DNA of 64,000 nt. Source: Adlercreutzia hattorii. Lineage in GTDB: Bacteria > Actinomycetota > Coriobacteriia > Coriobacteriales > Eggerthellaceae. Below, piece by piece: positions 6,139-45,463 of this stretch. Location: NCBI RefSeq assembly GCF_011405655.1, contig NZ_AP022829.1, forward strand, positions 434,001-498,000, in the 5' to 3' direction. Each line of letters begins with the position of its first letter. Positions within the stretch are counted from its first letter, which is position 1. A program made the translations under genes and the position numbers. The notes below the pieces were generated by a model. That model saw only the letters and a program-made list of their open reading frames with translations, was not told the origin of the DNA and did not search any database.

Positions 6139-8811
6139 CTAGCGCGGTAGGATTCCACGTTCGCGGGCGTTCTCTACGGCCTCAACCCGCGAATGCGCAT
6201 CCAATTTCTGAAGGGTGTTTCGGATGTGCGTTCTCACCGTGTGAACGGAAATATACAGCTGCTGGCTGATGGTCTCCGTGGTACTGCCACGCGCGATCAT
6301 TTCGAGTATTTCGACTTCTCGTTCGCTGAGAACCGGCAACGCTTCGTCAGTGTCGGCTTTGGAGCGCTTGGGCCGGCACTCAAGGGCATGAATGAGGGAT
6401 TGGGCGTAGGCGGGGTGCACGTCTTGGGCGACGGCAAGCTCGAGAAGCGGTTTGAGGATGTCGCCCGCAGCGATCACGCTCCGTACAATCTGCTCCTTTT
6501 CGGCCAGGGCGAGACTATACTCGATAGACCGGAGTGCCTGCTCGCGCTGTCCCAGCTTGAAATATATGCAGCCGAGAAGCGCCCGTGCGCTTAGACACCA
6601 TATCGCAGCACTGTTGGCATCGAAGAGCACCAAGCTGCGCTCCAGCTGCCGCTTCGCCATGTTCATGATGTCTTGACGGTTTGCGTCTTCAAGGGCGAAT
6701 GCCAGCAGTGTTCGTTGGGCTATTATGAAGCTCATAAAGCTTGTGGTTCCCTGGAACGGGGTTTCGACGATCGATCCTTGCGGGTAGAGAACCTTTGCAG
6801 CTTCCGAGTGGTCTCCCTGCTCCAGAAGCACCTTTGCTTTTACCCCCTGGATGTAGGCGCTCCAGTTGCGCTCCGGGCGAGGTGCGGCATATTGCTCGGC
6901 CTCGTTGAGAAGCATGAGCGACGTGTCGATGTCGCTGCGCGCCGCTGCAACTTCGGCCAAACCGATATAGGCGAATGGCAAGTACTTGCCCTTTTGCGCG
7001 TTCGGAGACGGATAGAGCGCGGTGTTGAAATGGACTTCCGCCTCGTTCAGGTGGTTTCGTTCAAAGGCTATGAATCCGAGAATTGCCCGGGCGAGTCGCC
7101 GCTCGGCGTCAAGGGCATTGCTTTGCAGCTCCAGAAGGGCCAGACTGCGCTCCTCTGCCTCGATGAGCGAGCCTTGCAGGAGTAGGACCTCGATGTGCTG
7201 GGTCTCTGCAATGGCGGCGTGGCGATTGTCGTGGGCCTTGACGAATTCCGACCGTGCCTCGGCGGCACATTGGGCGGAAGAGCCGGCATCCCCGTTAAGG
7301 TAAAACCCAAAACTCTGAGACAAGAGGGCCGATCCTCTGAACCAATTGAGGTCGGTCGGAAGATTGTCGAGAGCATGCTTGCCCTCGTCTATAGCCAGGT
7401 CGGCTGATCCGCGATAGCGATAGACCAAGCTTCGTATGGCATGGGCTCTGCCAAGGGCCGGTTTGTCATCGCGGGCGAGAAAGGCCTGCTCGGCAAGGCG
7501 CAGCGGACGCTCTATATGGTCGAGGTCCTTAGAATAATAGCTTGAGAATGCCGCCGAAAGGCAGAGATCCGGCTCCTGTGCCAAGACCGAATCCGGCCAA
7601 CTGAGGAATTCTCGATACCAGGTGAGGCGAGTCTTTTGAGGGCTGATGGACGGAGCGCTCTCAAGAGCATGGGAGTGGTAGCGATCGAGCAGAAGCCATC
7701 CGGCCGTCGTGTCTCCCGAGGCCATATGGTACTCAGCTGCCAAGAGGAGTTCTCCGCGCTTTTGATACCACGCGGCCGCTTTTTGCCAAAGGTCCTTCTC
7801 GTGGGCGAGGTCGCTGGTGCGACTGAACTGATCTCTGAGGAAAGCACGCAGGAGTTTTGGGTAGGCGAAGGTTGTACCCTGGTCATCCACGGGGGAGATC
7901 AGCCCACGATCCTTAAGCCAAACGATGTATTCGCCAGAATCATCAGTAGAGCGTACGGTGTCGCACAGGGGGGCGGAAAATTCGTTCAGAATGCACGTAT
8001 CGAGCATAAAGGTGCGAATGCGTGAGGGCAAGGTATCGTAGATGGCGTCATTGAGCCATTCTGTGATGCGGCGATCGCGGGCGCCGATGTTGGAGACGAA
8101 GTCGTCGCGATCTTCCGGATCGATGCGTTTTATTTGCAGAAGGGCCAGATGGAGCGCCGCTGGCCATCCGCCCGTGAGATCCATGAGGCGCTCCACGGAT
8201 GTCTCTTTGAGATCAATCAGATTCTCCCGGAGGAGGAGGCGCAAGTCTCCTCGCGTGAAAGCAAGGTCTAGGGCTGAAATCTCGAAAAGCTGGCTATGGG
8301 CTCGAAAAGAAGACAAGGGGAACGGAGGCGTAGATTCGCTCGAAATAATAAGGTGCAATGAAGGGGGAGCCCATCGAATGAGGGCAATAACAGCCTCATG
8401 CACCTCGGGATTGGATACGAGATGATAGTCGTTGAGTATGAGGACGTGGTCTCCAGTTATATGGGAGACCTGCTCAAGCGTCCAGGCCAGGTCAAGCGAC
8501 GAAGCGCCTGGGGGAGGGTCTGATTGATAATCCTGCTTCGACAGCATAGCCAAAAGAGACGAGGCAAGCTTCTGGTAGAACATGGCCACTTCGTTGTCGG
8601 ACTCGTCGACTTGGAGCCACGAGACGTGCTTGTCGGTATGGTTGGCCCAGCTTGTCAGCAGCGTTCCCTTTCCCCACCCCGACGATGCGACGCAGAGCGT
8701 GAGAGGGTATTTCGTTCCTTCGTTTAGCAGGCTTAGCAGTCTGTGACGCGGCACGATGCTTTTTGACTCAAGGGATGTTGGAGGACAACCTCCTATGTTG
8801 ATAACACTCAA
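6139..8811 (-). CDS. MalT/LAL-type LuxR-family regulator of the island
   Basis: This 890-residue protein has an N-terminal STAND-type ATPase region, a middle helical-repeat region and a C-terminal LuxR helix-turn-helix (LSEREVEILEMIARGSTTET, then ISQQLYISVHTVRTHIRNTL). The start is TTG at 8811, preceded by GAGGAG at good spacing; no ATG is available. The P-loop reads SSGWGKGT (residues 43-50) and the Walker B reads LILNDYH (N127-D128), so both are non-canonical. The gene is divergent from the CoA-transferase arm and convergent with the ligase. It is the likely activator acting at boxes A and B, perhaps with a CoA thioester or free acid as effector. Confidence 0.85.
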   Translation of the reverse strand: MSVINIGGCPPTSLESKSIVPRHRLLSLLNEGTKYPLTLCVASSGWGKGTLLTSWANHTDKHVSWLQVDESDNEVAMFYQKLASSLLAMLSKQDYQSDPPPGASSLDLAWTLEQVSHITGDHVLILNDYHLVSNPEVHEAVIALIRWAPPSLHLIISSESTPPFPLSSFRAHSQLFEISALDLAFTRGDLRLLLRENLIDLKETSVERLMDLTGGWPAALHLALLQIKRIDPEDRDDFVSNIGARDRRITEWLNDAIYDTLPSRIRTFMLDTCILNEFSAPLCDTVRSTDDSGEYIVWLKDRGLISPVDDQGTTFAYPKLLRAFLRDQFSRTSDLAHEKDLWQKAAAWYQKRGELLLAAEYHMASGDTTAGWLLLDRYHSHALESAPSISPQKTRLTWYREFLSWPDSVLAQEPDLCLSAAFSSYYSKDLDHIERPLRLAEQAFLARDDKPALGRAHAIRSLVYRYRGSADLAIDEGKHALDNLPTDLNWFRGSALLSQSFGFYLNGDAGSSAQCAAEARSEFVKAHDNRHAAIAETQHIEVLLLQGSLIEAEERSLALLELQSNALDAERRLARAILGFIAFERNHLNEAEVHFNTALYPSPNAQKGKYLPFAYIGLAEVAAARSDIDTSLMLLNEAEQYAAPRPERNWSAYIQGVKAKVLLEQGDHSEAAKVLYPQGSIVETPFQGTTSFMSFIIAQRTLLAFALEDANRQDIMNMAKRQLERSLVLFDANSAAIWCLSARALLGCIYFKLGQREQALRSIEYSLALAEKEQIVRSVIAAGDILKPLLELAVAQDVHPAYAQSLIHALECRPKRSKADTDEALPVLSEREVEILEMIARGSTTETISQQLYISVHTVRTHIRNTLQKLDAHSRVEAVENARERGILPR

Positions 8812-25730: not shown

Positions 25731-25736
25731 TGATCA

Positions 25737-26603
25737 ATGGTTTGGGGATCTATGATCGCTTGGTACCTGTTTTTGGCGGGCGCATCGGCCGGCGCCTTCC
25801 TCACTTCAGCCTTTGTGGAGGCGAAGTATCCCGACAGCGTGAAGATGCGCGTCGCGGGCCGCATTATCTCGCCCATCTTTCTGGGCATCGGTCTGCTCAT
25901 GCTCATGTTGGACGCCGAGGCCGGGCTGCACAACCCGCTGCGGTTCTTCTATCTTATTATGAACCCGGGCTCGGTAATGACGCTGGGCGTGTACTTCATC
26001 TGCGTGTTCATGCCGGTGTCCATTGCCGCGGCGCTGCTTGAGGTGCTGCGTCGCCCGGTGCCGAAGTGGCTCACCTGGACAGGTATCGTATCCGCGTTCT
26101 GCGTGGCGGCCTACACCGGCTTTCTGCTGGGGGTCGTGAGCGCCTACCCGCTGTGGAACAACGCCATTTTGCCGGTGCTGTTCGTGGTGTCGGCTCTGTC
26201 GGCGGGTCTGGCGGCTACGAGCTTGGTGGGCCTTATCACCGATCGTGAGCGCTTCGAGCAGATGTGGCTCATCAAGAAGAGCCACGTGATTCTGTCGGCT
26301 ATCGAGATGGTGGTGCTTGCAACCATGCTCATCATCGTGAGCTCGGGCAGTCCCGAGGGCGCCGCATCGGTTGCCTCGCTCGTGTCGGGCCAGTACGCGC
26401 CAATGTTCTGGGGCGGTCTGGTGCTGCTTGGCCTGGTGGCGCCGTTTGCCATCGAGGGCTACCCGGTGTTTGTCACGCGAAAGGTGGAGACCTCCACCAC
26501 CTCTATGGTAGTGAGCGTCATCGGCGAGGGCGGTGTCCTTGTGGGTGGTTTCATGCTGCGTCTGCTGGTCATTCTGGCGGCTCTACCGGTGCTGTACCTG
26601 TAG
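25737..26603 (+). CDS. NrfD/PsrC-type membrane anchor subunit
   Basis: This 288-residue protein with eight to nine hydrophobic segments begins MVWGSMIAWYLFLAGASAGA, characteristic of the NrfD/PsrC family. It exchanges electrons with the menaquinone pool and completes a CISM-type complex with the two preceding genes. The last codons lie in a 34-bp tandem duplication. Confidence 0.88.
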   Translation: MVWGSMIAWYLFLAGASAGAFLTSAFVEAKYPDSVKMRVAGRIISPIFLGIGLLMLMLDAEAGLHNPLRFFYLIMNPGSVMTLGVYFICVFMPVSIAAALLEVLRRPVPKWLTWTGIVSAFCVAAYTGFLLGVVSAYPLWNNAILPVLFVVSALSAGLAATSLVGLITDRERFEQMWLIKKSHVILSAIEMVVLATMLIIVSSGSPEGAASVASLVSGQYAPMFWGGLVLLGLVAPFAIEGYPVFVTRKVETSTTSMVVSVIGEGGVLVGGFMLRLLVILAALPVLYL

Positions 26604-36125: not shown

Positions 36126-36830
36126 TTACCCGCAGGCCTCGGGATCGAGGCGGTAGCCGATGCCCCAGACGGTTTCTATGATGCGGGGCTCGGTGGGGTC
36201 GTCCTCTATCTTGGCCCGCAGCTTCTTGATGAACACGGTGATGGAACTGGTCTCGCCGACGAATTCCGGTCCCCAGGCTGCCTCCACCAGCTGTTCGCGG
36301 GAAAGCACCGTGCCGGGGCTTGCAGCCAGCGTCGCCAGGATCTTGAACTCCTTCGGGGTCAGCGACACGTGTTCGCCGGCCAAGGTGGCGCGGTGCTGGG
36401 CCATATCTAAGGAAAGACATCCCACGGTGATGGTGCCGGAGGAAGGCACAGCGCTGCTCGGGCGCATGGCGGCGCGGCGCAGATGCGCCTCGATGTGCAT
36501 CATCAGCTCGCGGGGGTCGAAGGGCTTCACCATGTAGTCGTCGCCACCGGCCGCGAATCCGACGCCCTTGTCCACGATGTCGCCTTTGGCCGACAGGAAG
36601 ATGACCGGCACGGTGACGCCTCGGGTCCGCAGCTCGCGGCAGGCGGTGAATCCATCCATCTTCGGCATCATGACGTCCATGATGATGAGGTCGGGCGCAT
36701 CGCGAGCGACGGCGTCCAGCGCATCGGCGCCGTTGTCGGCGTAAGCGAATTGCCACTCGGCGCCTTCCACCATGTCGCGCACCACCCGGGCAATGCGCGG
36801 TTCATCGTCCACGAGCAGAATCTTCGCCAT
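36126..36830 (-). CDS. OmpR/PhoB-family response regulator
   Basis: This 234-residue regulator has a receiver domain with acidic pair DD (8-9), phospho-acceptor Asp52 (LIIMDVMMPKMDG), Ser80 and Lys102 (YMVKPFD). The winged helix includes RIIETVWGIGYRLDPE. It lies 62 bases downstream of the haem-type sensor kinase. The pair probably controls the divergent molybdoenzyme operon starting at 38974. Confidence 0.92.
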   Translation of the reverse strand: MAKILLVDDEPRIARVVRDMVEGAEWQFAYADNGADALDAVARDAPDLIIMDVMMPKMDGFTACRELRTRGVTVPVIFLSAKGDIVDKGVGFAAGGDDYMVKPFDPRELMMHIEAHLRRAAMRPSSAVPSSGTITVGCLSLDMAQHRATLAGEHVSLTPKEFKILATLAASPGTVLSREQLVEAAWGPEFVGETSSITVFIKKLRAKIEDDPTEPRIIETVWGIGYRLDPEACG

Positions 36831-36892
36831 CGTCGTCCTCCTTCGCGGTTGTCAGCGGCTCGGCCTTCGGCGCTGCGGGCCGCCCTGCGGTT

Positions 36893-38674
36893 TTACGATT
36901 CCTCGTCCTCTTCCTCAATGACGGGCGCATAGGGAATGCGCACGGTGAACGTGCTGCCCTCCTTCACCCGGCTTTCCACGGCCACGGTGCCGCCATGCAG
37001 CTCGGTGAGGTCGCGCACTACGGCAAGCCCTAGCCCCGTGCCCCGGTAGCGGCGGTTGGCCGACTGCCCGGCCTGCTTGTACAGCTCGAAGATCTGGTCC
37101 AGCTCCTCGGGTGCGATGCCCATGCCGTCGTCGGCAACGCGCATGACGATCCAGCCGGCAGGGGCCGCGTCTTCGTCATCCGGGACGTGCGTGCCGGGAT
37201 GGTTGCCGTGGCCGTGGTTCGCCTCTTCGCCGCTTTCGAACCCAATCGTCAGGCGCACGAACCCGCCTCGATGGGTGTACTTGATAGCATTGTTCACCAG
37301 GTTCTCCAAAATGCGGCGCAGCTTCTCCCAATCGGCCATGCTCAAGGGCACGTCCGGCGCCACCGAGCAGGAGAGTCTCACATCCTTGCCTTCCGCGATA
37401 GGGACCAGCGCCTTGCGCACGAACTGGGCCAAATCGACGAAATCCACGGGTTCGGGCAAAAGCTCGTCCTTTTTAGCAGCGTGCTTGGAAATGACGAGGA
37501 TGTTGTTCACCATGTTCAGCAAAAGGGTGGCATTCGATTCGATTTCGCCCACGGCCTCGCGGGTCTTGGGCGCTAGGCTGTCGTCCGCGTTCAGGATGCG
37601 CGCGTAGGCCAAAATGCTGGTGAGCGGCGTGCGCAGCTCGTGGCTGACGATGGCGAAGAACTCGTTCTTGTAGGCCACCTCATCACCCAGCCGATCGAGT
37701 GCTACCTTCAGCTCGCGCTTCTGGTAGTTCAGCATGTCGTTGAGCACCATGAGGTCGTCGGTCTTGGAACGCACCTGGCCCTCCAGATCGGCATAAAGCG
37801 CCTCAAGGTCGCGGGCCATGCGGTCGAACTCGCCGGTGAGCTCCGCCAGCTCGTCGCGGGGCCGCTCGCCGGGGTCGGGCACCGTGAGGGTGTAGTTGAA
37901 GTCGCCCTTGCCCACGGCGCCCGCCGCGCTTCGCAGCTCGTCGATGGGCCGCAGCACCAGCCGGCTTGTCACGAAGTACAGCCCGATGAAGGCCGCTACC
38001 ATCATGAACAACACCATGATCGCCTGCTGCATCATGCTGTCCTGGATGCCGGCGGCGTAAATGTCCATGGGCTCGGTGATGGACATGGCGCCGCCCACCT
38101 GTCCCACCTGCATGCCTTCCTTGGGGTAGCCGTACTGATCCAGCTCGCCGACGGGGTCGCCGTGACATTCCAGGCACGATTCGGTCACGTACAAAGGCTC
38201 GGTATAGCGAAACACCCGCGTGCCGTCGCCGGCGTCTACCACGCGCCAGAACGCCTTGCGTTCCGGGTCGGCGTTGAAGGCGGCCAGAGCCTCCTGCTCG
38301 AACTCGTCCGGCGCGTTGGCGGCCTGACGAGGGGTGTCGTTGGTGAAGCGGATGGAGTAGTCGGTCTCCGTGGTAAACAGCATGGAGATAGACTTCGCCG
38401 CCACCACGCACACGAGGTGCTTCGTACGGAAGGTGCCGTCCTCGGCACGGTTGATGACGTCCTGATTCATATCGACGAAATCCCATGCTGCGCGCATCTC
38501 GGAGGCAAGTACCTCGGCCTTCTCGCGAGCCTCGTTCTCGGCTTGGGCGTTCTGCAGCGACAGGTTCCACAGGATGTCGACGGCCATGAGCGCAACCATA
38601 ATGACGCCGATGGAAACGGCGATCTTGAAACGTATGCCATAGCGGAACGGGCGCCCCGGGTGATCGGTCGACAT
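36893..38674 (-). CDS. Sensor histidine kinase with periplasmic haem-binding DUF3365 domain
   Basis: This 593-residue kinase has a TM helix (18-40), then an extracytoplasmic DUF3365/Tll0287-like domain with a c-type haem motif CLECH (Cys167, Cys170, His171). A second TM follows (215-238), then HAMP, a coiled coil, HisKA with His345 (IVSHELRTPLTS) and an ATPase domain (RRYRGTGLGLAVVRDL). Such domains are thought to sense redox state or a gas through covalent haem. It shares an operon with the response regulator and is divergent from a respiratory molybdoenzyme, so it probably tunes that enzyme to redox conditions. Confidence 0.9.
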   Translation of the reverse strand: MSTDHPGRPFRYGIRFKIAVSIGVIMVALMAVDILWNLSLQNAQAENEAREKAEVLASEMRAAWDFVDMNQDVINRAEDGTFRTKHLVCVVAAKSISMLFTTETDYSIRFTNDTPRQAANAPDEFEQEALAAFNADPERKAFWRVVDAGDGTRVFRYTEPLYVTESCLECHGDPVGELDQYGYPKEGMQVGQVGGAMSITEPMDIYAAGIQDSMMQQAIMVLFMMVAAFIGLYFVTSRLVLRPIDELRSAAGAVGKGDFNYTLTVPDPGERPRDELAELTGEFDRMARDLEALYADLEGQVRSKTDDLMVLNDMLNYQKRELKVALDRLGDEVAYKNEFFAIVSHELRTPLTSILAYARILNADDSLAPKTREAVGEIESNATLLLNMVNNILVISKHAAKKDELLPEPVDFVDLAQFVRKALVPIAEGKDVRLSCSVAPDVPLSMADWEKLRRILENLVNNAIKYTHRGGFVRLTIGFESGEEANHGHGNHPGTHVPDDEDAAPAGWIVMRVADDGMGIAPEELDQIFELYKQAGQSANRRYRGTGLGLAVVRDLTELHGGTVAVESRVKEGSTFTVRIPYAPVIEEEDEES

Positions 38675-38973: not shown

Positions 38974-41334
38974 ATGACGAAGAACAGCGAACGCGCCATT
39001 GACGCCAAGCTCACCCGTCGCGCCTTCGTGGGCGCTGCCGCGGCTACGGCTGCTGTGGGCCTGGCCGGATGCGCCCCTGCGGCCACCGACGAGGCGCCGG
39101 CCAAGGACGAGGACCTGCCCGTCACGGGGGAGGATCCCTATGCAAATGCGGAGATCTTCTACTCTACGTGCCCGCCGGAGTGCCAGCATCACAACCTCAA
39201 GGGCTATGTGGTGGACGGCAAGCTTGTGAAGGTGGAGTCTTCCGAGTTGAACGACTGCGCCGCCTGCGCTCGCGGCATCGCTCGTGGCTTTATGTGCAAC
39301 GATCCCAATCGACTGACGGTGCCGCTTTTGCGCGACGGCGATAAGGGTTCGGGTAAGTTCAAGGAGATCACTTGGGATGAGGCCTTCGACCTTATCCAGC
39401 AGAAGCTCGATGAGGCCATTGCCACCGATGGCAACCAGTCGATTTGCTACGCAACTGGCTCGGGCAACTTCGGGGCCATGCACGGCCCGGTGGCGAATGC
39501 CTTCTTTGCGCATCTCGGCGGCGCCACTACGACGGTAGGCAAGCTTTGCTGTGCCGGCGTGTACGAGTCTGTTGTGTACATTTACGGCAAGCGCTTTCTG
39601 GACTGCCGTAACCAGATTGAGAACAGCACCTATTGCATTATTTGGGGCAACAATCCCGCCATCACCAAGCAGGGCTACTTCCAGCGTTTCGAGAAAGTGG
39701 TGGAAAACGGTGGCAAGCTCGTGGTGATCGATCCTATCTATACCGAGTCGGCCGCTAAGGCTACCGACTGGATCGCTCCCTGGCCCGGCACCGATGCAGC
39801 CTTGGGGCTTGCGATGCTGAAGACCATCGTGGACGAGAAGCTCTATGATGAGGAGTTCCTGCTGGCTCACACCTGCGCCCCGTGTCTGGTGGACAAGGCC
39901 ACGGGAGAGCCAGTGATGGAAGATCCTGAGGATCCGGCCTCCTTTGTGGTGCTCGATACCGCCACGGGCAATGTGGTGCGCCATGATGCCGCAAACATCA
40001 CGGCTGCCCTCACTTTGGAGGGAACGCCCCAGGCCGAGCAGTACAACACTGAGTTCGAGCTCATCTATGCCAACGCCGCTCCCTGGACAGTTGAGGCTGC
40101 CGAGGCCGAGTGCGGAGTGCCTGCGGCCGACATCCAGCGTATCGCTCGCGAGTACGCGACCGCCGAGCATGCCATGATCGTTCACAACATGGGCGGATTC
40201 ATGCGTACCGAGAATGGTACCTACGCCGTGGCCGTTGGTGCCTACTTGGCAGCGTTCTGCGGACAGATCGGCCATGAGGGTGAGGGCTATTCGGATGCGG
40301 GTGGTGTGTGCGAAGTGAAGACCGGTGCGCCGATCGAGGTTCCCAACTTACTCGAGAAGATGCCCACCATCCCGTGCTTTAAGTTTGGTGAGTCCATTCT
40401 GAACGAAGACCCCTGCAAGGTGAACGTGTTCTGGTCCATGACCGGCAGCCCCATGACCCAGTGGCCCAATACCAACATGGTGCGCAAGGCTCTAGAAAAG
40501 ATCCCCTTCGTCATTACCGTCGATGAGTACCTGACCTCTACCGCCCTCTACTCCGATTTGGTTCTGCCCTGCGCAGGCATCTTCGAGGTGGACGGCGTGC
40601 TGGCCCAGAACCGCTCCCATTGGATTCAGCTGATGGAGAAGGCGGTGGATGCGCCCGGCGAGGCCAAGAGCGATTTGGAGATATTCACTGAGCTCGCTCG
40701 CCGTTACGACTTCGGCGATGCCTTCGATGTGCCCATGGAGACGCTCATCAGCAACGTCATTGAGCCGGCGGGCATCACCTATGAGGAGCTGAAGGAGAAA
40801 AAGGCCATCGACGTGGTGGGTCCCGACTACATTCCCTATAAAGACGGCAAATTCCTTACACCTTCCGAAAAAGCCGAGTTCTGGGTACGCTCCTGGAAGG
40901 AGGAGGGCTTCGACCCCATTGCCTCCTACGCGCGTGCTGAAGAGGACGCTCGCAACGACAATGAACTGGCTCGCAAGTATCCGCTCTTCAGCGTTCAGCA
41001 GAAGACTTATCGCAGTGTGCATTCCACCTTCAACAATCTCGAATGGATGGACGAGGTATGCGATCAAAAGCCCGTGGTTCTTATGAATGTCGCTGATGCC
41101 GAGACACGAGGTATCCAGGATGGCGATGCGGTGGTTGTGTTCAACGATCGTGGCGAGCATCACGGCGTTGCTCTCGTCAACGACCTTATCAAGCCTGGGG
41201 TAGTAGGGCTGCAGAACGGCTGGTGGGAGCAGCAGGGCGGCTCGTCCAGTTATGTGACCAACGATAAGTGGAGGACTCTCGGTGGTACCCACTGCTGCAA
41301 TCAGACTCTCGTTGACGTGAAGAAGGAGGCGTAA
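38974..41334 (+). CDS. Molybdopterin oxidoreductase catalytic subunit (DMSO-reductase superfamily), second system
   Basis: This 786-residue protein has a twin-arginine signal (TRRAFVGAAAATAAVGLAGC) that also contains a lipobox-like LAGC. The FeS site is CPPECQHH with further cysteines in CAACARG and GFMCNDPNRL. The molybdopterin-binding C-terminal domain is present. The start at 38974 follows GGGAGGAGAG. It operates with the FeS protein encoded 4 bases downstream, but no membrane anchor follows. The substrate is unknown; the superfamily includes many gut-bacterial reductases and dehydroxylases. Confidence 0.87.
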   Translation: MTKNSERAIDAKLTRRAFVGAAAATAAVGLAGCAPAATDEAPAKDEDLPVTGEDPYANAEIFYSTCPPECQHHNLKGYVVDGKLVKVESSELNDCAACARGIARGFMCNDPNRLTVPLLRDGDKGSGKFKEITWDEAFDLIQQKLDEAIATDGNQSICYATGSGNFGAMHGPVANAFFAHLGGATTTVGKLCCAGVYESVVYIYGKRFLDCRNQIENSTYCIIWGNNPAITKQGYFQRFEKVVENGGKLVVIDPIYTESAAKATDWIAPWPGTDAALGLAMLKTIVDEKLYDEEFLLAHTCAPCLVDKATGEPVMEDPEDPASFVVLDTATGNVVRHDAANITAALTLEGTPQAEQYNTEFELIYANAAPWTVEAAEAECGVPAADIQRIAREYATAEHAMIVHNMGGFMRTENGTYAVAVGAYLAAFCGQIGHEGEGYSDAGGVCEVKTGAPIEVPNLLEKMPTIPCFKFGESILNEDPCKVNVFWSMTGSPMTQWPNTNMVRKALEKIPFVITVDEYLTSTALYSDLVLPCAGIFEVDGVLAQNRSHWIQLMEKAVDAPGEAKSDLEIFTELARRYDFGDAFDVPMETLISNVIEPAGITYEELKEKKAIDVVGPDYIPYKDGKFLTPSEKAEFWVRSWKEEGFDPIASYARAEEDARNDNELARKYPLFSVQQKTYRSVHSTFNNLEWMDEVCDQKPVVLMNVADAETRGIQDGDAVVVFNDRGEHHGVALVNDLIKPGVVGLQNGWWEQQGGSSSYVTNDKWRTLGGTHCCNQTLVDVKKEA

Positions 41335-41338
41335 GACC

Positions 41339-41905
41339 ATGGCTATCGGATTTTGGATGAACAATAAGAACTGCTACGGCTGCAAGACCTGCTCCATCGC
41401 CTGCAAGAGCGAGAAGCAGTTGGATAAGGGTGTGCTGCTGCGGCATGTGACGGCAATTCGTCAGGATGATCCGCGAGCTTTTGCTTACCTCTCTATGGCC
41501 TGTAACCATTGCGAAGAGCCTGCCTGTATGGCGAACTGCCCGGTAGGGGCCTACAGCAAGCTGGAAGACGGTACGGTGATTCAAGATCACTCCGTGTGCA
41601 TCGGCTGCAAGACCTGCATCTCGGCCTGCCCCTACGGTGCGCCCGGCTACGACGAGGCGTCGAGCACCACGTTCAAGTGCGACGGCTGCTATGATCGGCG
41701 CCAGCGCGGTGAGCTGCCTGCGTGCGTGGCCGCCTGCCCCGGTGCAAATCTGGCCCTCGATGACATGGAGTCTCTGCAGGGCGCGCACGCGGCCGACATC
41801 GTGTCCGACGAGAGCTCCGGTACCAAGCCCAACTTCGTCATCACGGTGGATGCGGCCTTGGCCGAAGAGCCTGACGACATCGTGGTCGAGAACCATACGG
41901 CGTAA
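41339..41905 (+). CDS. Ferredoxin-type electron-transfer subunit (DmsB family), second system
   Basis: This 188-residue protein has four FeS groups: CYGCKTCSIAC, CNHCEEPACMANC, CIGCKTCISAC and CDGCYDRRQRGELPACVAAC. It starts just after the catalytic gene with GAAGGAGGC as ribosome-binding site. It would deliver electrons to the molybdoenzyme; with no anchor gene present, the donor is unclear. Confidence 0.92.
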   Translation: MAIGFWMNNKNCYGCKTCSIACKSEKQLDKGVLLRHVTAIRQDDPRAFAYLSMACNHCEEPACMANCPVGAYSKLEDGTVIQDHSVCIGCKTCISACPYGAPGYDEASSTTFKCDGCYDRRQRGELPACVAACPGANLALDDMESLQGAHAADIVSDESSGTKPNFVITVDAALAEEPDDIVVENHTA

Positions 41906-41943
41906 TTTTCCTGAGGGCGCCCTTGTCCGCGAGGGCGCAAGAA

Positions 41944-41979
41944 CGGCACGAAGCGCTCCCTCCCCTCCGCTTCGTGCCG
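41944..41979 (+). terminator. Intra-operon hairpin between the FeS subunit and permease genes
   Basis: CGGCACGAAGCG and CGCTTCGTGCCG form a perfect 12-bp stem with a 12-nt loop, followed by CCCCCTTTT. The next ribosome-binding site follows within 20 bases. It may attenuate expression or set mRNA processing, so that the enzyme is made in excess over the transporter genes. Confidence 0.6.
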
Positions 41980-42004
41980 CCCCCTTTTGGAAGGAGGACG
42001 AGCA

Positions 42005-43207
42005 ATGTTTTCCCTAGCTTGGAAGAACATCATCCGGCGCTTGGGCGGATCCCTCATGACCGCCCTCATTGCCTTCATCGCCGTTTTTGTCCTGGCCACC
42101 TCGCTGGCTGTTGTGGCATCGCTCGAAAATGGACTGAGGCTCTCGCGGGAGCGACTCGGGGCCGACATCATGGTCCTTCCCGCAGGGGCCTCGGGCAACG
42201 CCTCGGAAGTGCTCTTTTGCGCCGAGCCGGTCAACGTGTACTTGCCGGCCGACGTCGAGCGAACCGTTGCCGAAACCGCCGGCGTGGAACAGGCAACGCC
42301 CCAATTCTTCACGCAAACGGTCAACCAGAGCTGCTGCTCGGTGATCGGGGTGACGCGCGTGGTGGGTATTGACATGGAGACAGATTTCATCGTGGGCCCC
42401 TGGCTGGTCGGCGGGGCCCTTGAAGGGGGAGCGCTGCCGCCGGACGGCATTATCTTGGGGGCCGCAGCGCCACCCATCGAAGGCGGCCAAGCATCCATTC
42501 TCGGATCGGTGTTTCACTGTGTGGGCACCCTTGAGCCAACGGGATCGAGCGTCGACGAGACCATCTTCATGGATGTGAATGCTGCGCGAACCATTGCGGC
42601 CGAAAGTCCGTATCTTGAGAGCGTCTGGCTTAACGTCGATCCCTTCGATGCTATCTCGTGCGTTATGGTGAAGGTGAAAGAGGGAGCGCAGCCCTCGGCT
42701 GTGGCAGCTGCCATTATCGAACAGGTGCCGGGCGCTGCAGCGGTATGCACCTCCGATCTTATTGCCAGCGTAACATCCCAACTGGTCGTGTTGGAATCAA
42801 TGACCCTTGCGTTTCTGGCGGCCATTGTGCTTTTGGCGGCTCTGGCGTTGGCGGGGCGGTTCTCGTCGCTCGTGTCGAGTCGTATGGGCGAGCTCGGCCT
42901 GCTGAGGACGATGGGAGTTGGCCGCCTTAAGGTTGCTTTGAGCTTCGTGGTCGAGGTGGGGGTTGTCACGATGGCCGCGGCTGCGGCAGCGACGGCCTGC
43001 GCGTGCTTGGCGTCGTCGGCCATTATCGGGCAGCTCCATACCTCGTTTGATTTGCCGGGAGCCCTGTTGGCTCCCTCTGCTTACGGGTGGGTTGTCTGCG
43101 CGGCCCTCCTGTTCGCGGTGCTCCTCAGCTTGGTGGCGCTCGTTCAGCCCATGATCGCCCTGATGCGCCAGGATCCCCAGGAAACGCTTGCCAAAGGAGG
43201 GTTGTGA
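42005..43207 (+). CDS. FtsX/MacB-type ABC permease
   Basis: This 400-residue protein has an N-terminal TM helix, a large extracytoplasmic domain (residues 45-260, including a QSCC pair) and three C-terminal TM helices with the FtsX cytoplasmic signature SRMGELGLLRTMGVG. It starts at 42005 after GGAAGGAGGAC. It pairs with the ATPase whose start codon overlaps its stop (TGATG). MacB-like systems transmit force or move lipoproteins and envelope molecules rather than importing solutes. Confidence 0.85.
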   Translation: MFSLAWKNIIRRLGGSLMTALIAFIAVFVLATSLAVVASLENGLRLSRERLGADIMVLPAGASGNASEVLFCAEPVNVYLPADVERTVAETAGVEQATPQFFTQTVNQSCCSVIGVTRVVGIDMETDFIVGPWLVGGALEGGALPPDGIILGAAAPPIEGGQASILGSVFHCVGTLEPTGSSVDETIFMDVNAARTIAAESPYLESVWLNVDPFDAISCVMVKVKEGAQPSAVAAAIIEQVPGAAAVCTSDLIASVTSQLVVLESMTLAFLAAIVLLAALALAGRFSSLVSSRMGELGLLRTMGVGRLKVALSFVVEVGVVTMAAAAAATACACLASSAIIGQLHTSFDLPGALLAPSAYGWVVCAALLFAVLLSLVALVQPMIALMRQDPQETLAKGGL

Positions 43208-43884
43208 TGGAACCGTTGTTAGAGCTTTCCGACGTCGTAAAGGAATTCTCATCCCGTCCCCCGGTGCGCCCCCTCGATGGCCTGAGCATGGTTGTGCCGC
43301 CCTCGACGATGATTGCGGTTACGGGCGTCTCTGGCAAAGGGAAATCGACGCTGCTCAACGTGATGGGCGGTCTGTTGCGCCCCGAAGCTGGCAGTGTACG
43401 GTATCGGAAGATCGACTTGACGCAGGCGACGGCCGCTCAGATCGACGACATTCATCGGCGGGGCATCGGCTTCGTTTTTCAAACGCCCTATTTGTTCCAG
43501 GCGCTGACGGCCTATGAGAATTTGGAGCTGGCATTGCGGGCCTCTGGCGAGAAGGTGGTGCGAGACCGCATTTTCGAGATGCTGGAGAAGCTGGGCCTCA
43601 GCGAGCGGGCCGAGCATCTTCCCTCGGCGCTATCCGCTGGTCAGAAGCGCCGACTGGTGCTCGGCCGTGCGCTTCTCTCCCATCACGATGTGCTGCTGGC
43701 GGACGAGCCGACGAATGACCTGGATGCGGAATGGTCGGAGCGCGTCTTCGAGTTGCTGCGCGGCTTCTGTGCCACCGAGGGGCGGTCGGTGGTTCTGGTG
43801 ACCCATGACCGCTCCTATGCTGCCCAGGCCGACAAGGTATACCTTTTGGAAGGCGGAAAGCTTCGGGAGGAGGTGACGCTGTGA
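43207..43884 (+). CDS. ABC transporter ATP-binding protein (LolD/MacB type)
   Basis: This 225-residue ATPase has Walker A GVSGKGKST near residues 40-48, ABC signature LSAGQKRR, Walker B VLLADEPTNDLD and the H-loop THD. The extra Lys inside the P-loop (GKGKS) is unusual. It is coupled to the permease upstream and overlaps the propeller gene by 4 bases. Confidence 0.88.
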   Translation: MEPLLELSDVVKEFSSRPPVRPLDGLSMVVPPSTMIAVTGVSGKGKSTLLNVMGGLLRPEAGSVRYRKIDLTQATAAQIDDIHRRGIGFVFQTPYLFQALTAYENLELALRASGEKVVRDRIFEMLEKLGLSERAEHLPSALSAGQKRRLVLGRALLSHHDVLLADEPTNDLDAEWSERVFELLRGFCATEGRSVVLVTHDRSYAAQADKVYLLEGGKLREEVTL

Positions 43885-45032
43885 TCACGCGCAGGAGCTT
43901 TGTGATGTTAGCGGGTATTGGGGCCATGGGGCTGCTGGGCACACCAGGGTGTGCCGCTCTGACTGAGGAGTCGCCAAGAGATGTAGCCGAAGAGGGAGGG
44001 CCGCGTGAGAGTTCGTCGCCGACTCCCCAAAAGGAGCCGATCAATGCCGGCGAGCCATTTTCGGGGGAGATTGCTCCCGGGATGCTGTGCGTTGCGGAGT
44101 ACGCGACGAACGCTCTTGCAGTTGTCGACGCGAGGGCGGGAGAAGTAGTTGGGCGCATTCCCGTCGGCCGCAATCCGGCTTCGGTTCTAGTTATGCAGGG
44201 TATCGTTTTCGTGGGATGCAGCGGTACTGGCGAGGTGACGGCGGTCCCGGTAGCAAATCCGGCCGCTGCGGCCCCCATTCCCGTGGGACATCAGATTCTC
44301 GGGCTGTGTCGCGACGAGGCCCGGGGGCTTATCTATGCTGGCGACTACTTTGCCAACGGCGTCCATGCAATCGATGCGGCGCTGCAATCGCTTGTGAGTA
44401 CGATGGATCTGAGCTCCTCGGGGTTCAGCGGCCGTACCGACCCGCCGCCTTGCTGCACCATTGAGCCGGGGGCCGGCCGCCGCACGGTGGCGTTGGCCCT
44501 GGCGCCTGAGGGGGACGTGCTGTACGCGGCCAACTACGGCACCTACGACGTGGCTCGCATCGATCTTGCGACGGGCGAGGAGCTCGATGCCTTCGACGGC
44601 GTGGTGGGTCCGCGGCAGATTCTTGTGTCGGCCGATGGCGGCCAGCTCATTTTGGCCGGCGTGGGCGGTGAGGGCGAGCAGCAGGTGAGCGCGCTGTACG
44701 TGCTCGACCGCGCCACGGGCAAGCGGGTGCTCGAGGTGCCCGTGGGGCTCTCCGTGGCCGGAGTGGCGCTTGCCGCCGATGGGCGGCGGGCGTGGGCTAT
44801 CGCCCGGGACGACGGCGAGCTCGTGGCCTTCGACGCGGCCGATTGGACGGAGACGGGGCGGCTCTCACTGGGCGTGGGCATCGACACGCTGGTGCTCTCG
44901 CCCGACGGGGAGACGCTCTTTGTGGGAAACAGCATTGGTGGTCAGGTGCATGCCGTTGACGCGGAGACGCTGGCGCTGCGCACGACCGTGGAAGGATTGG
45001 CGGCGCCTAAGGGCCTCGCCGTCATTGTCTGA
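43881..45032 (+). CDS. Secreted YVTN-type beta-propeller protein (putative lipoprotein)
   Basis: This 383-residue protein has a twin-arginine-like signal (MITRRSFVMLAGIGAMGLLG) followed by TPGC, a possible lipobox. The mature part is built of repeated blades (AVVDARAGEVVGRIPVGRNP; VARIDLATGEELDAFDG; VLDRATGKRVLEVPVG), as in YVTN/surface-layer or NHL-like propellers. It probably works outside the membrane with the FtsX permease. The role is unproven, though ABC systems plus secreted repeat proteins recall Nos-type metal-site assembly. Confidence 0.8.
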   Translation: MITRRSFVMLAGIGAMGLLGTPGCAALTEESPRDVAEEGGPRESSSPTPQKEPINAGEPFSGEIAPGMLCVAEYATNALAVVDARAGEVVGRIPVGRNPASVLVMQGIVFVGCSGTGEVTAVPVANPAAAAPIPVGHQILGLCRDEARGLIYAGDYFANGVHAIDAALQSLVSTMDLSSSGFSGRTDPPPCCTIEPGAGRRTVALALAPEGDVLYAANYGTYDVARIDLATGEELDAFDGVVGPRQILVSADGGQLILAGVGGEGEQQVSALYVLDRATGKRVLEVPVGLSVAGVALAADGRRAWAIARDDGELVAFDAADWTETGRLSLGVGIDTLVLSPDGETLFVGNSIGGQVHAVDAETLALRTTVEGLAAPKGLAVIV

Positions 45033-45043
45033 AAGGGAGCAGA

Positions 45044-45463
45044 ATGAAGAACGTGAAGCTGATCGTGCCGATCATCTCGCTGGTGTGCGCCGCCGTGGTG
45101 TGTGGGGCGGTGCTTCTGTGGGCACCCGTCTGCGCGGGAACCCTCGAGCTAGCCAATGGGAACATGGTGCCCATGCGGTGCGCCTACACGGCCAAGGTCG
45201 CCGTGCTGCTGGCGCTGGTGCTGGCCGCGGTGGCGGTGGCGGCGCTCGTGACGAAGCGCCCCATGACTGTGGCGCTGGTGCTGTTGTCGTGCGCCATCGT
45301 GCTCATGACTTTCGACACGCCGCTGTCCGTCGGCGTGTGCAAGAGCGCCGACATGGCCTGCCAGGCCACGGCCCTCTGGCTGCGCATCGCCGGAGGCGTG
45401 TCAGCGGTAGCCGCCCTGGCCGGCGCCCTCCTCAACCCCGACCGCAAGCGCGTAGCGGAGTAG
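45044..45463 (+). CDS. DUF4418-family four-helix membrane protein
   Basis: This 139-residue protein has four hydrophobic helices and several cysteines near the membrane faces (VCGAVLLWAPVCAGTLE; PMRCAYTAK; CKSADMACQ). It matches the DUF4418 family, which commonly accompanies FtsX/ATPase pairs. It starts 12 bases after the propeller gene. Cysteine content at the outer face is consistent with redox or metal work but is not proof. Confidence 0.75.
   Translation: MKNVKLIVPIISLVCAAVVCGAVLLWAPVCAGTLELANGNMVPMRCAYTAKVAVLLALVLAAVAVAALVTKRPMTVALVLLSCAIVLMTFDTPLSVGVCKSADMACQATALWLRIAGGVSAVAALAGALLNPDRKRVAE

Follow-up and report, generated by a model that had tools for sequence, protein, structure and literature searches.

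How an exported molybdoenzyme stays at the membrane when no membrane subunit is encoded beside it, and what an ATP-binding cassette (ABC) unit may do next to such an enzyme, are the questions raised by six consecutive genes of Adlercreutzia hattorii. Drugs, steroids and polyphenols are transformed by the large molybdoenzyme repertoires of Eggerthellaceae, and for the enzymes that lack an anchor subunit neither the attachment to the membrane nor the source of electrons is, to our knowledge, settled. The genes lie at positions 38974-45463, all on the plus strand, of a 64,000-nucleotide stretch (the window; NZ_AP022829.1, 434,001 to 498,000) from a genome assembled as a single contig of 2.9 Mb. 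They encode a molybdoenzyme catalytic subunit, here called MoA (38974..41334), an iron-sulfur (FeS) subunit (41339..41905), and a four-gene module of an FtsX/MacB-type permease (42005..43207), an ABC ATPase (43207..43884), a beta-propeller (43881..45032) and a DUF4418 protein (45044..45463). Pfam searches identified all six as a first, sequence-only reading had described them; that reading likened the layout to NosDFY-type maturation and suggested a possible assembly or electron-entry system for an extracytoplasmic reductase. The link between MoA-FeS and the module is real but optional: the module is neither a substitute for an anchor nor an obligatory maturation system, and it is not NosDFY.

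Distribution of the enzyme and the module

The MoA subfamily was delimited by searching 138 Eggerthellaceae genomes with a profile built from seven MoA sequences, seven candidates being scored per genome; neighbours here and in later surveys were read from six-frame open reading frames rather than from a gene caller. There were 24 matches above 1000 bits which, together with fragments in G104 and G127, give 25 genomes; the next family reached 427 bits. The module adjoins MoA-FeS in 7 of the 25, namely G000 and, with the identical six-gene order on one contig, six further genomes (G002, G007, G039, G085, G104 and G133), and the module order is kept across these seven genomes of five genus groups. 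The association proposed from the letters is accordingly a real and recurrent one. Another 16 of the 25 genomes have MoA-FeS with neither the module nor a DmsC/NrfD-type gene seen next to FeS; they include G008 and G038, whose contigs end 0.3 kb and 1.7 kb past FeS, and G098 and G109, in which a five- or six-helix gene with no Pfam hit follows FeS. A DmsC-like third gene was found in the last two, G037 and G127. Among the module-less genomes, 17 of 18 are devoid of any DUF4418 match, and propeller matches stay at or below 43 bits in every one. These 18 enzyme genomes speak against an obligatory assembly or electron-entry system, and the 16 with neither module nor anchor gene against an anchor substitute, the enzyme moreover bearing its own lipobox.

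The propeller is dedicated to the module, being found only there. Searched with its profile, the 138 genomes yielded eight matches exceeding 500 bits, spread over seven genomes, with the next best at 43 bits; seven copies share a contig with MoA-FeS, and the eighth (G104 C155) lies on a short contig. Scanning 84,980 named genomes by sequence pattern returned six loci, all Eggerthellales, a count that is not exhaustive, at least G085 having been missed and the window's own record possibly left out. Whether the four downstream genes often stand alone has a divided answer: the four-gene set was never seen without MoA-FeS where the contig is readable, whereas FtsX, ATPase and DUF4418 were found without the enzyme in 18 loci (within 9 kb), in 10 of them contiguous and on one strand.

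Genome G104 has additional, partial copies spread over three more contigs. Contig C128 has an MoA piece, FeS and FtsX; contig C210 (L103) carries the kinase, FeS and an N-terminal MoA piece with one in-frame stop, and may represent one more copy, either broken or misassembled. In one family member, the gene after a module-less MoA-FeS pair (L087:9537-11438, plus strand) encodes Oxidored_molyb and MtrC-like domains.

Separate histories of enzyme and module

The FtsX genes of the module form one clade (SH-like approximate likelihood ratio test, SH-aLRT, 96) whose sisters are L032 and L033, and within it the window FtsX groups with those of the congeners G002 and G007 (support 100); L060, with a split frame, was left out of this tree. 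The window MoA groups instead with those of module-less G004, G008 and G134. In approximately unbiased (AU) tests of groups named after inspection of the tree, with G127, one G104 row and the outgroup removed, a single clade of module-bearing enzymes was rejected (p-AU 5e-6), as was the window MoA constrained with module-bearing congeners G002 and G007 (p-AU 9e-72). The identities to the window follow the same division: MoA is 84% identical in module-less G004 vs 52% in module-bearing G007, and the G007 module stands at 64% for FtsX, 69% for the ATPase, 66% for the propeller and 82% for DUF4418. The sensor kinase encoded upstream is 83% (G004) and 80% (G007) identical. The trees suggest one origin for the module and several lineages for the enzymes; either the module would have moved or the enzyme pair would have been swapped beside it, the break then lying between FeS and FtsX. 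Through this exchange the module has stayed with one enzyme subfamily, which speaks for a functional link.

The MoA-FeS enzyme and its predicted lipid anchor

MoA falls within the dimethyl sulfoxide (DMSO) reductase, or molybdopterin oxidoreductase, family, with both domains above cut-off (Molybdopterin 1.9e-51, Molydop_binding 7.1e-21); its best curated match is DmsA/YnfE, far under the NCBI dmsA_ynfE cut-off (281 vs 778 bits). The FeS subunit is DmsB-like and carries 16 cluster cysteines in four clusters as in DmsB (Fer4_11 1e-24; under the DMSO_dmsB cut-off). MoA-FeS is predicted to be an exported two-subunit oxidoreductase of this family, and MoA probably uses molybdenum. The catalytic subunit, the four-cluster FeS subunit and the twin-arginine translocation (Tat) signal resemble those of DmsABC, and G037 and G127 add even the DmsC-like third gene. 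The window locus differs from DmsABC in that no DmsC/NrfD-type anchor gene adjoins MoA-FeS (the genome's 15 NrfD matches lie elsewhere), in the lipobox of MoA, and in two features of the catalytic subunit. The first FeS motif is modified to CxxxCQHH, in which the third cysteine usual in the family is gone and the two histidines are invariant in 7/7 aligned proteins; the aligned residue of the metal-site loop is a cysteine, Cys192 of the pair CysCys 192-193 (bases 39547-39552), which matches a loop cysteine of formate dehydrogenase 7bkb that we take to be a metal ligand. Elsewhere in the window, an NrfD-like match with one in-frame TGA (about 25731-26585, plus strand) belongs to a gene set of the MoA-FeS-NrfD type (L117).

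The word anchorless describes the neighbourhood correctly, as no anchor gene adjoins, and describes MoA itself poorly. Its signal, TRRAFVGAAAATAAVGLAGC, combines a twin-arginine motif (TRRAF) with the lipobox LAGC, the lipobox Cys33 being encoded at bases 39070-39072. Because the Tat signal ends in a lipobox, a lipid anchor is predicted, and MoA appears to be held on the outward side of the membrane through a lipid at Cys33, which would replace a membrane subunit. The propeller signal (RRSF...GC) likewise has a twin-arginine motif and a lipobox, and both proteins show the Tat lipoprotein pattern of twin-arginine, hydrophobic stretch and lipobox cysteine, as judged by pattern and alignment only. 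A lipobox is present in 23/23 readable N-termini of the MoA subfamily (22 by script, L093 by eye), 3 of the 26 subfamily rows being cut at contig ends (the MoA of G037, of G127 and of one G104 copy).

The same alternative is seen beyond the subfamily. Among 49 other molybdoenzymes, taken from fetched loci rather than at random and including many near relatives, a lipobox occurs in 0/22 with a gene of at least six helices starting within 1 kb 3' of the catalytic gene and in 27/27 without one, most of the loci extending only about 3 kb beyond the catalytic gene; the rules were revised once after the first tabulation, and this second table is not blind. Within the MoA subfamily, three script classes were corrected by reading: the 'anchor' of L054 is its own FtsX, that of L097 is a six-helix protein without Pfam hit, and that of L093 reads by eye as a symporter, the lipobox missed there by the script being visible in the printed signal. 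On an enzyme tree built without the signals, anchor labels switch six times; of six independent contrasts, four stand on well-supported branches, and these four all go in the expected direction (sign test p 0.125, not significant), in a run that only counts independent contrasts, the lipobox states having been taken from the anchor classes.

In the window genome, a Tat signal is found in 29 of the 31 PF00384 matches (loci L112-L118 and L160-L183), and among these a lipobox occurs in 0/10 with an anchor gene within 1 kb and in 18/19 without (p 5e-7). A gene with seven or eight helices stands farther downstream in three loci (L161, L168 and L171), in the last two an NrfD match past one intervening non-membrane gene; with all three counted as anchored, the figures become 3/13 vs 15/16 (p 3e-4). 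The six-, eleven- and eight-helix genes of L165, L176 and L177 at 1.3-1.4 kb, which have no NrfD match, were not counted. A plain count of membrane genes within 1.5 kb 3' of the 31 matches speaks against strict exclusion, with lipobox without gene in 14, lipobox with gene in 4, gene without lipobox in 10, neither in 1 and no Tat signal in 2. A lipobox and an adjacent anchor subunit therefore tend toward mutual exclusion in the family, not strictly. Five- or six-helix proteins 3' of lipobox molybdoenzymes (L096:9427-10131, L097:8733-9512 and L165:5031-5795; the first two with no Pfam hit) are a possible alternative membrane partner.

A lipid anchor would be a simple, testable answer to how molybdoenzymes without an anchor subunit stay at the membrane. 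The two-subunit catechol dehydroxylases of Gordonibacter likewise consist of catalytic and FeS subunits without an anchor subunit, a likeness by description rather than by sequence, and the available parts of these reports mention neither a lipid anchor nor an ABC module (PMC11574389, PMC11585353); in the first of them, a review in Metallomics, the word 'lipoprotein' is absent from the main text. Among the matches listed in the open-licence literature, no title or abstract concerns lipid-anchored Eggerthellaceae molybdoenzymes. For alternative complex III, the accessible portion of one paper reports a lipobox on ActE and not on the molybdopterin-like subunit (PMC5928083). Haloarchaeal NirK and NosZ are exported respiratory enzymes and predicted lipid-anchored Tat substrates according to PMC8301774; they are archaeal copper enzymes, whereas molybdoenzymes of a bacterial family are concerned here.

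The module and the known ABC systems

The ABC pair is MacB-like, as the sequence-only reading had it, with a permease of FtsX (6.8e-9) and MacB_PCD (2.8e-8) domains and a separate ATPase of the MacB/LolD kind (ABC_tran 9.6e-30). This arrangement resembles MacB, LolCDE and FtsEX (type VII), from which the module differs by an SCCS motif in the permease, a DUF4418 partner and the propeller. Among solved structures, LolF and LolC stand closest to FtsX, significant similarity to LolF being limited to profile positions 224-398, in the C-terminal part. As to the four transmembrane helices of the type VII group, a crude hydropathy count gives 1-6 in FtsX relatives, the lowest in a cut protein. A MacAB-TolC system was considered and set aside, as no MacA- or TolC-like gene adjoins at the locus, to which this search was confined.

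The secreted beta-propeller with a twin-arginine-like signal was also recognised correctly (YNCE 7.7e-11, YVTN type). Its model has a mean predicted local distance difference test score (pLDDT) of 82.8, and closest to it among solved structures are YVTN propellers of a general kind; the structural matches also include NirF, hydrazine synthase and AztD, a fold likeness that alone assigns no function. Membership in the clade III, lactonase-type N2O reductases (L-NosZ) was rejected at 32 vs 700 bits for the curated cut-off. The comparison with NosDFY, in which an ABC pair and a secreted protein stand next to a respiratory-type metalloenzyme, does not survive at the level of the folds. NosD is a beta-helix protein and NosY an ABC-2 type permease; the module has a propeller, by Pfam and model, instead of NosD and an FtsX/MacB_PCD permease, nearest LolF and LolC, instead of NosY.

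The FtsX-ATPase-DUF4418 unit in other loci

Of the 38 DUF4418 matches in the family, 37 were examined and one (G113, under the cut-off and with stops) was dropped. In 25 of the 37, DUF4418 has an FtsX of the module type and an ATPase no more than 9 kb away; by context these loci comprise 7 with MoA and the propeller, 9 importer loci with an NMT1-type binding protein (L042, L060, L051, L048, L040, L056, L057, L063 and L062), 4 of the iron-uptake type and 5 others. The 10 contiguous, one-strand loci among the 18 without MoA are L032, L033, L038, L041, L042, L045, L052, L053, L064 and L065. An FMN (flavin mononucleotide)-binding gene is present in 4/4 iron-uptake loci and FtrD in 3/4, with FTR1 and P19 in L052 and L053; FTR1, P19, FtrD-like and FMN_bind were confirmed by Pfam in L053. 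In L052 and L053, the FTR1/P19 iron-uptake operon (C. jejuni 1649-1656; gram-positive forms with an FMN-binding protein) precedes FtsX(CC)-ATPase-DUF4418, which is additional to the two FtsX and the ATPase of the operon itself. FTR1, P19, FtrD-like and FMN-binding genes are absent at the window locus. In a sample of the phylum, DUF4418 was found in 12/396 genomes, 10 above cut-off. FtsX-ATPase-DUF4418 is a separate, portable envelope unit.

The substrates of the two permeases and ATPase of the P19 operon are called unknown in PMC6083913, and the role of the FMN-binding protein in P19-type operons is given as undefined in a flavinylation survey (PMC8238504); because of this, no cargo can be borrowed for the module. 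On DUF4418 itself, the open-licence papers offered one line in an expression table (PMC7701253), and no paper uniting an FtsX ABC transporter, a beta-propeller and a molybdopterin operon was found among them. What is new here is the gene combination, and the variant, around a conserved and unexplained ABC unit.

Two loci are of note. A distant member of the phylum (L104:2914-11910) has DUF4418, FtsX, ATPase and an FtrD-like protein, with NapC-like and ResB-like genes nearby. At L032, beside an FtsX sister to that of the module, a lipobox protein (7574-8731, minus strand) has a rhodanese domain and the motif CVLCIDSC, a hint of sulfur; at L033, the second sister locus, the lipoprotein gave no Pfam hit.

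Conserved cysteines

Conserved cysteines recur in three of the four module proteins. The SCCS motif of FtsX lies in the MacB_PCD region (Cys110-111, bases 42332-42337) and is invariant in the module copies, the CC being found in 26/30 relatives. The cysteine-bearing membrane protein of the sequence-only reading is DUF4418 (3.2e-16; four helices in the model), whose cysteines 30, 46, 99 and 106 are invariant in 31/31 aligned proteins (23 of the family, 8 of the phylum). The propeller has CysCys 191-192 (bases 44451-44456), invariant in 8/8 copies, in a long loop modelled between strands 170-176 and 202-207, a region of lower confidence. In the NMT1-type binding lipoproteins near FtsX(CC), the motifs CE, GC and CCF are invariant in 9/9. 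The last recalls the CCCFC iron motif of fungal Thi5, a motif resemblance only (PMC10512395).

Proposed role and alternative explanations

The reading we prefer, with a rough probability of 0.4, is that the module is an envelope unit powered by ATP, that it uses conserved cysteines to act on a lipoprotein client, and that it is an optional accessory to MoA-FeS. An FtsX-ATPase-DUF4418 unit would have joined once with a dedicated propeller lipoprotein to give the four-gene module found only beside MoA-FeS. Hydrolysis of ATP in the cytosol would drive movements of FtsX outside the membrane, on which side the cysteines are predicted to lie; the FtsX CC, the four DUF4418 cysteines and the propeller CC may then bind, reduce or pass a thiol-seeking species, be it a metal ion, sulfane sulfur or a disulfide. 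The propeller lipoprotein would be the adaptor to the enzyme, and at other loci the client could be the FMN-binding lipoprotein of the iron-uptake operon or an NMT1-type binding lipoprotein. The module would service the enzyme, its substrate or its product under some conditions, and would not build the enzyme in every cell. A broader formulation is doubtful, namely that FtsX(CC)-ATPase-DUF4418 is an undescribed ATP-driven extracytoplasmic machine for thiols, metals or sulfane sulfur, plugged by way of a dedicated lipoprotein adaptor into varied surface redox systems, here the widespread lipid-anchored, anchor-subunit-free molybdoenzymes of gut Actinomycetota, with an electron route still to be found. 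The cysteine-rich ABC unit ties one molybdoenzyme to iron-uptake loci whose permeases lack a known cargo, and solving either context would inform the other.

Several observations weigh against this preferred reading. The 99-base gap between FeS and FtsX (41906..42004) has two strong predicted hairpins (-47 kcal/mol) and may be a partial terminator; co-transcription of the six genes is thereby left uncertain. The gap was unflagged in a terminator scan; strong hairpins are also predicted in the corresponding gaps of six other module loci and 3' of FeS in 8/8 module-less loci folded, in both cases by folding without a shuffled control. Transcription of the module may be weaker than, or separate from, that of the enzyme. 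As to the unit itself, such an FtsX is missing from the 9 kb around 11 of the 37 DUF4418 matches, several of them on short contigs, and for a twelfth the contig stops short of FtsX; in 7/9 importer loci, DUF4418 is 0.1-6 kb from the FtsX-ATPase genes on the opposite strand, so that the three are neighbours there and not one operon. In favour of a lipoprotein client, 15 of the 18 loci without MoA have a lipobox gene on the FtsX strand no more than 4.5 kb away, and 11 have one within 500 bases (by eye), a count that has no background rate, lipoproteins being common. The FtsX CC was not found in 4 of the 30 relatives, all of them distant (L105, L106, L110 and L111). The DUF4418 model is middling (pLDDT 71.5), with a best Foldseek E of 0.29 and no clear solved match; its structural VIA rows are mostly four-helix bundles, including claudin-like TARPs. 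A DsbB/VKOR-like fold was considered for DUF4418 on account of the four helices and four cysteines; DsbB was absent among the matches listed, no redox-active fold was identified, and the conserved cysteines may form plain structural disulfides.

The alternatives explain parts of these data. If the MacB-like FtsX-ATPase exported a toxic compound, be it substrate or product of the enzyme, and the propeller bound it on the outside, the MacB_PCD and FtsX domains and the MacB/LolD-like ATPase would be expected and the optional occurrence would suit a protective role; such efflux is nonetheless unlikely, given that no MacA- or TolC-like gene is at the locus and that FtsX-ATPase-DUF4418 sits in or beside uptake loci. 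A Lol-like handling, in which FtsX-ATPase pulls, relocates or releases the lipoprotein enzyme and the propeller, draws on the nearness of FtsX to LolF and LolC and on the frequent lipobox neighbours, and is rendered rather improbable by the short extent of the LolF likeness and by the 16 genomes that have a lipobox enzyme without the module. The NosDFY-like system of the sequence-only reading, required for maturation or electron entry, could claim the recurrent operon order, the cysteine-bearing membrane protein and the missing anchor gene; with 18/25 enzyme genomes lacking the module, 17 of them lacking any DUF4418 match, and with folds other than those of Nos proteins, it has little probability left. 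Furthermore, we know of no ABC pump that carries electrons, which counts against a required electron entry. Accidental adjacency of two separate transcription units, to which the hairpins in the gap would lend themselves, is very improbable, as the order is kept in seven genomes of five genus groups, with more than one enzyme lineage, and the propeller was not found elsewhere.

Neighbouring genes

Upstream of MoA lies a divergent two-component pair on the minus strand, formed by an OmpR-type response regulator (36126..36830; Response_reg 2.9e-29, Trans_reg_C 1e-27) and a sensor kinase (36893..38674; HisKA, HATPase_c) with an extracytoplasmic Tll0287-like (DUF3365) domain (7.2e-32). The pair (36126-38674) also adjoins most MoA relatives; the kinase was not found next to those of G099, G026 and G133. 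A CxxCH motif is seen in the translation of the kinase, and such a motif in the Tll0287-like outer domain suggests a heme c sensor.

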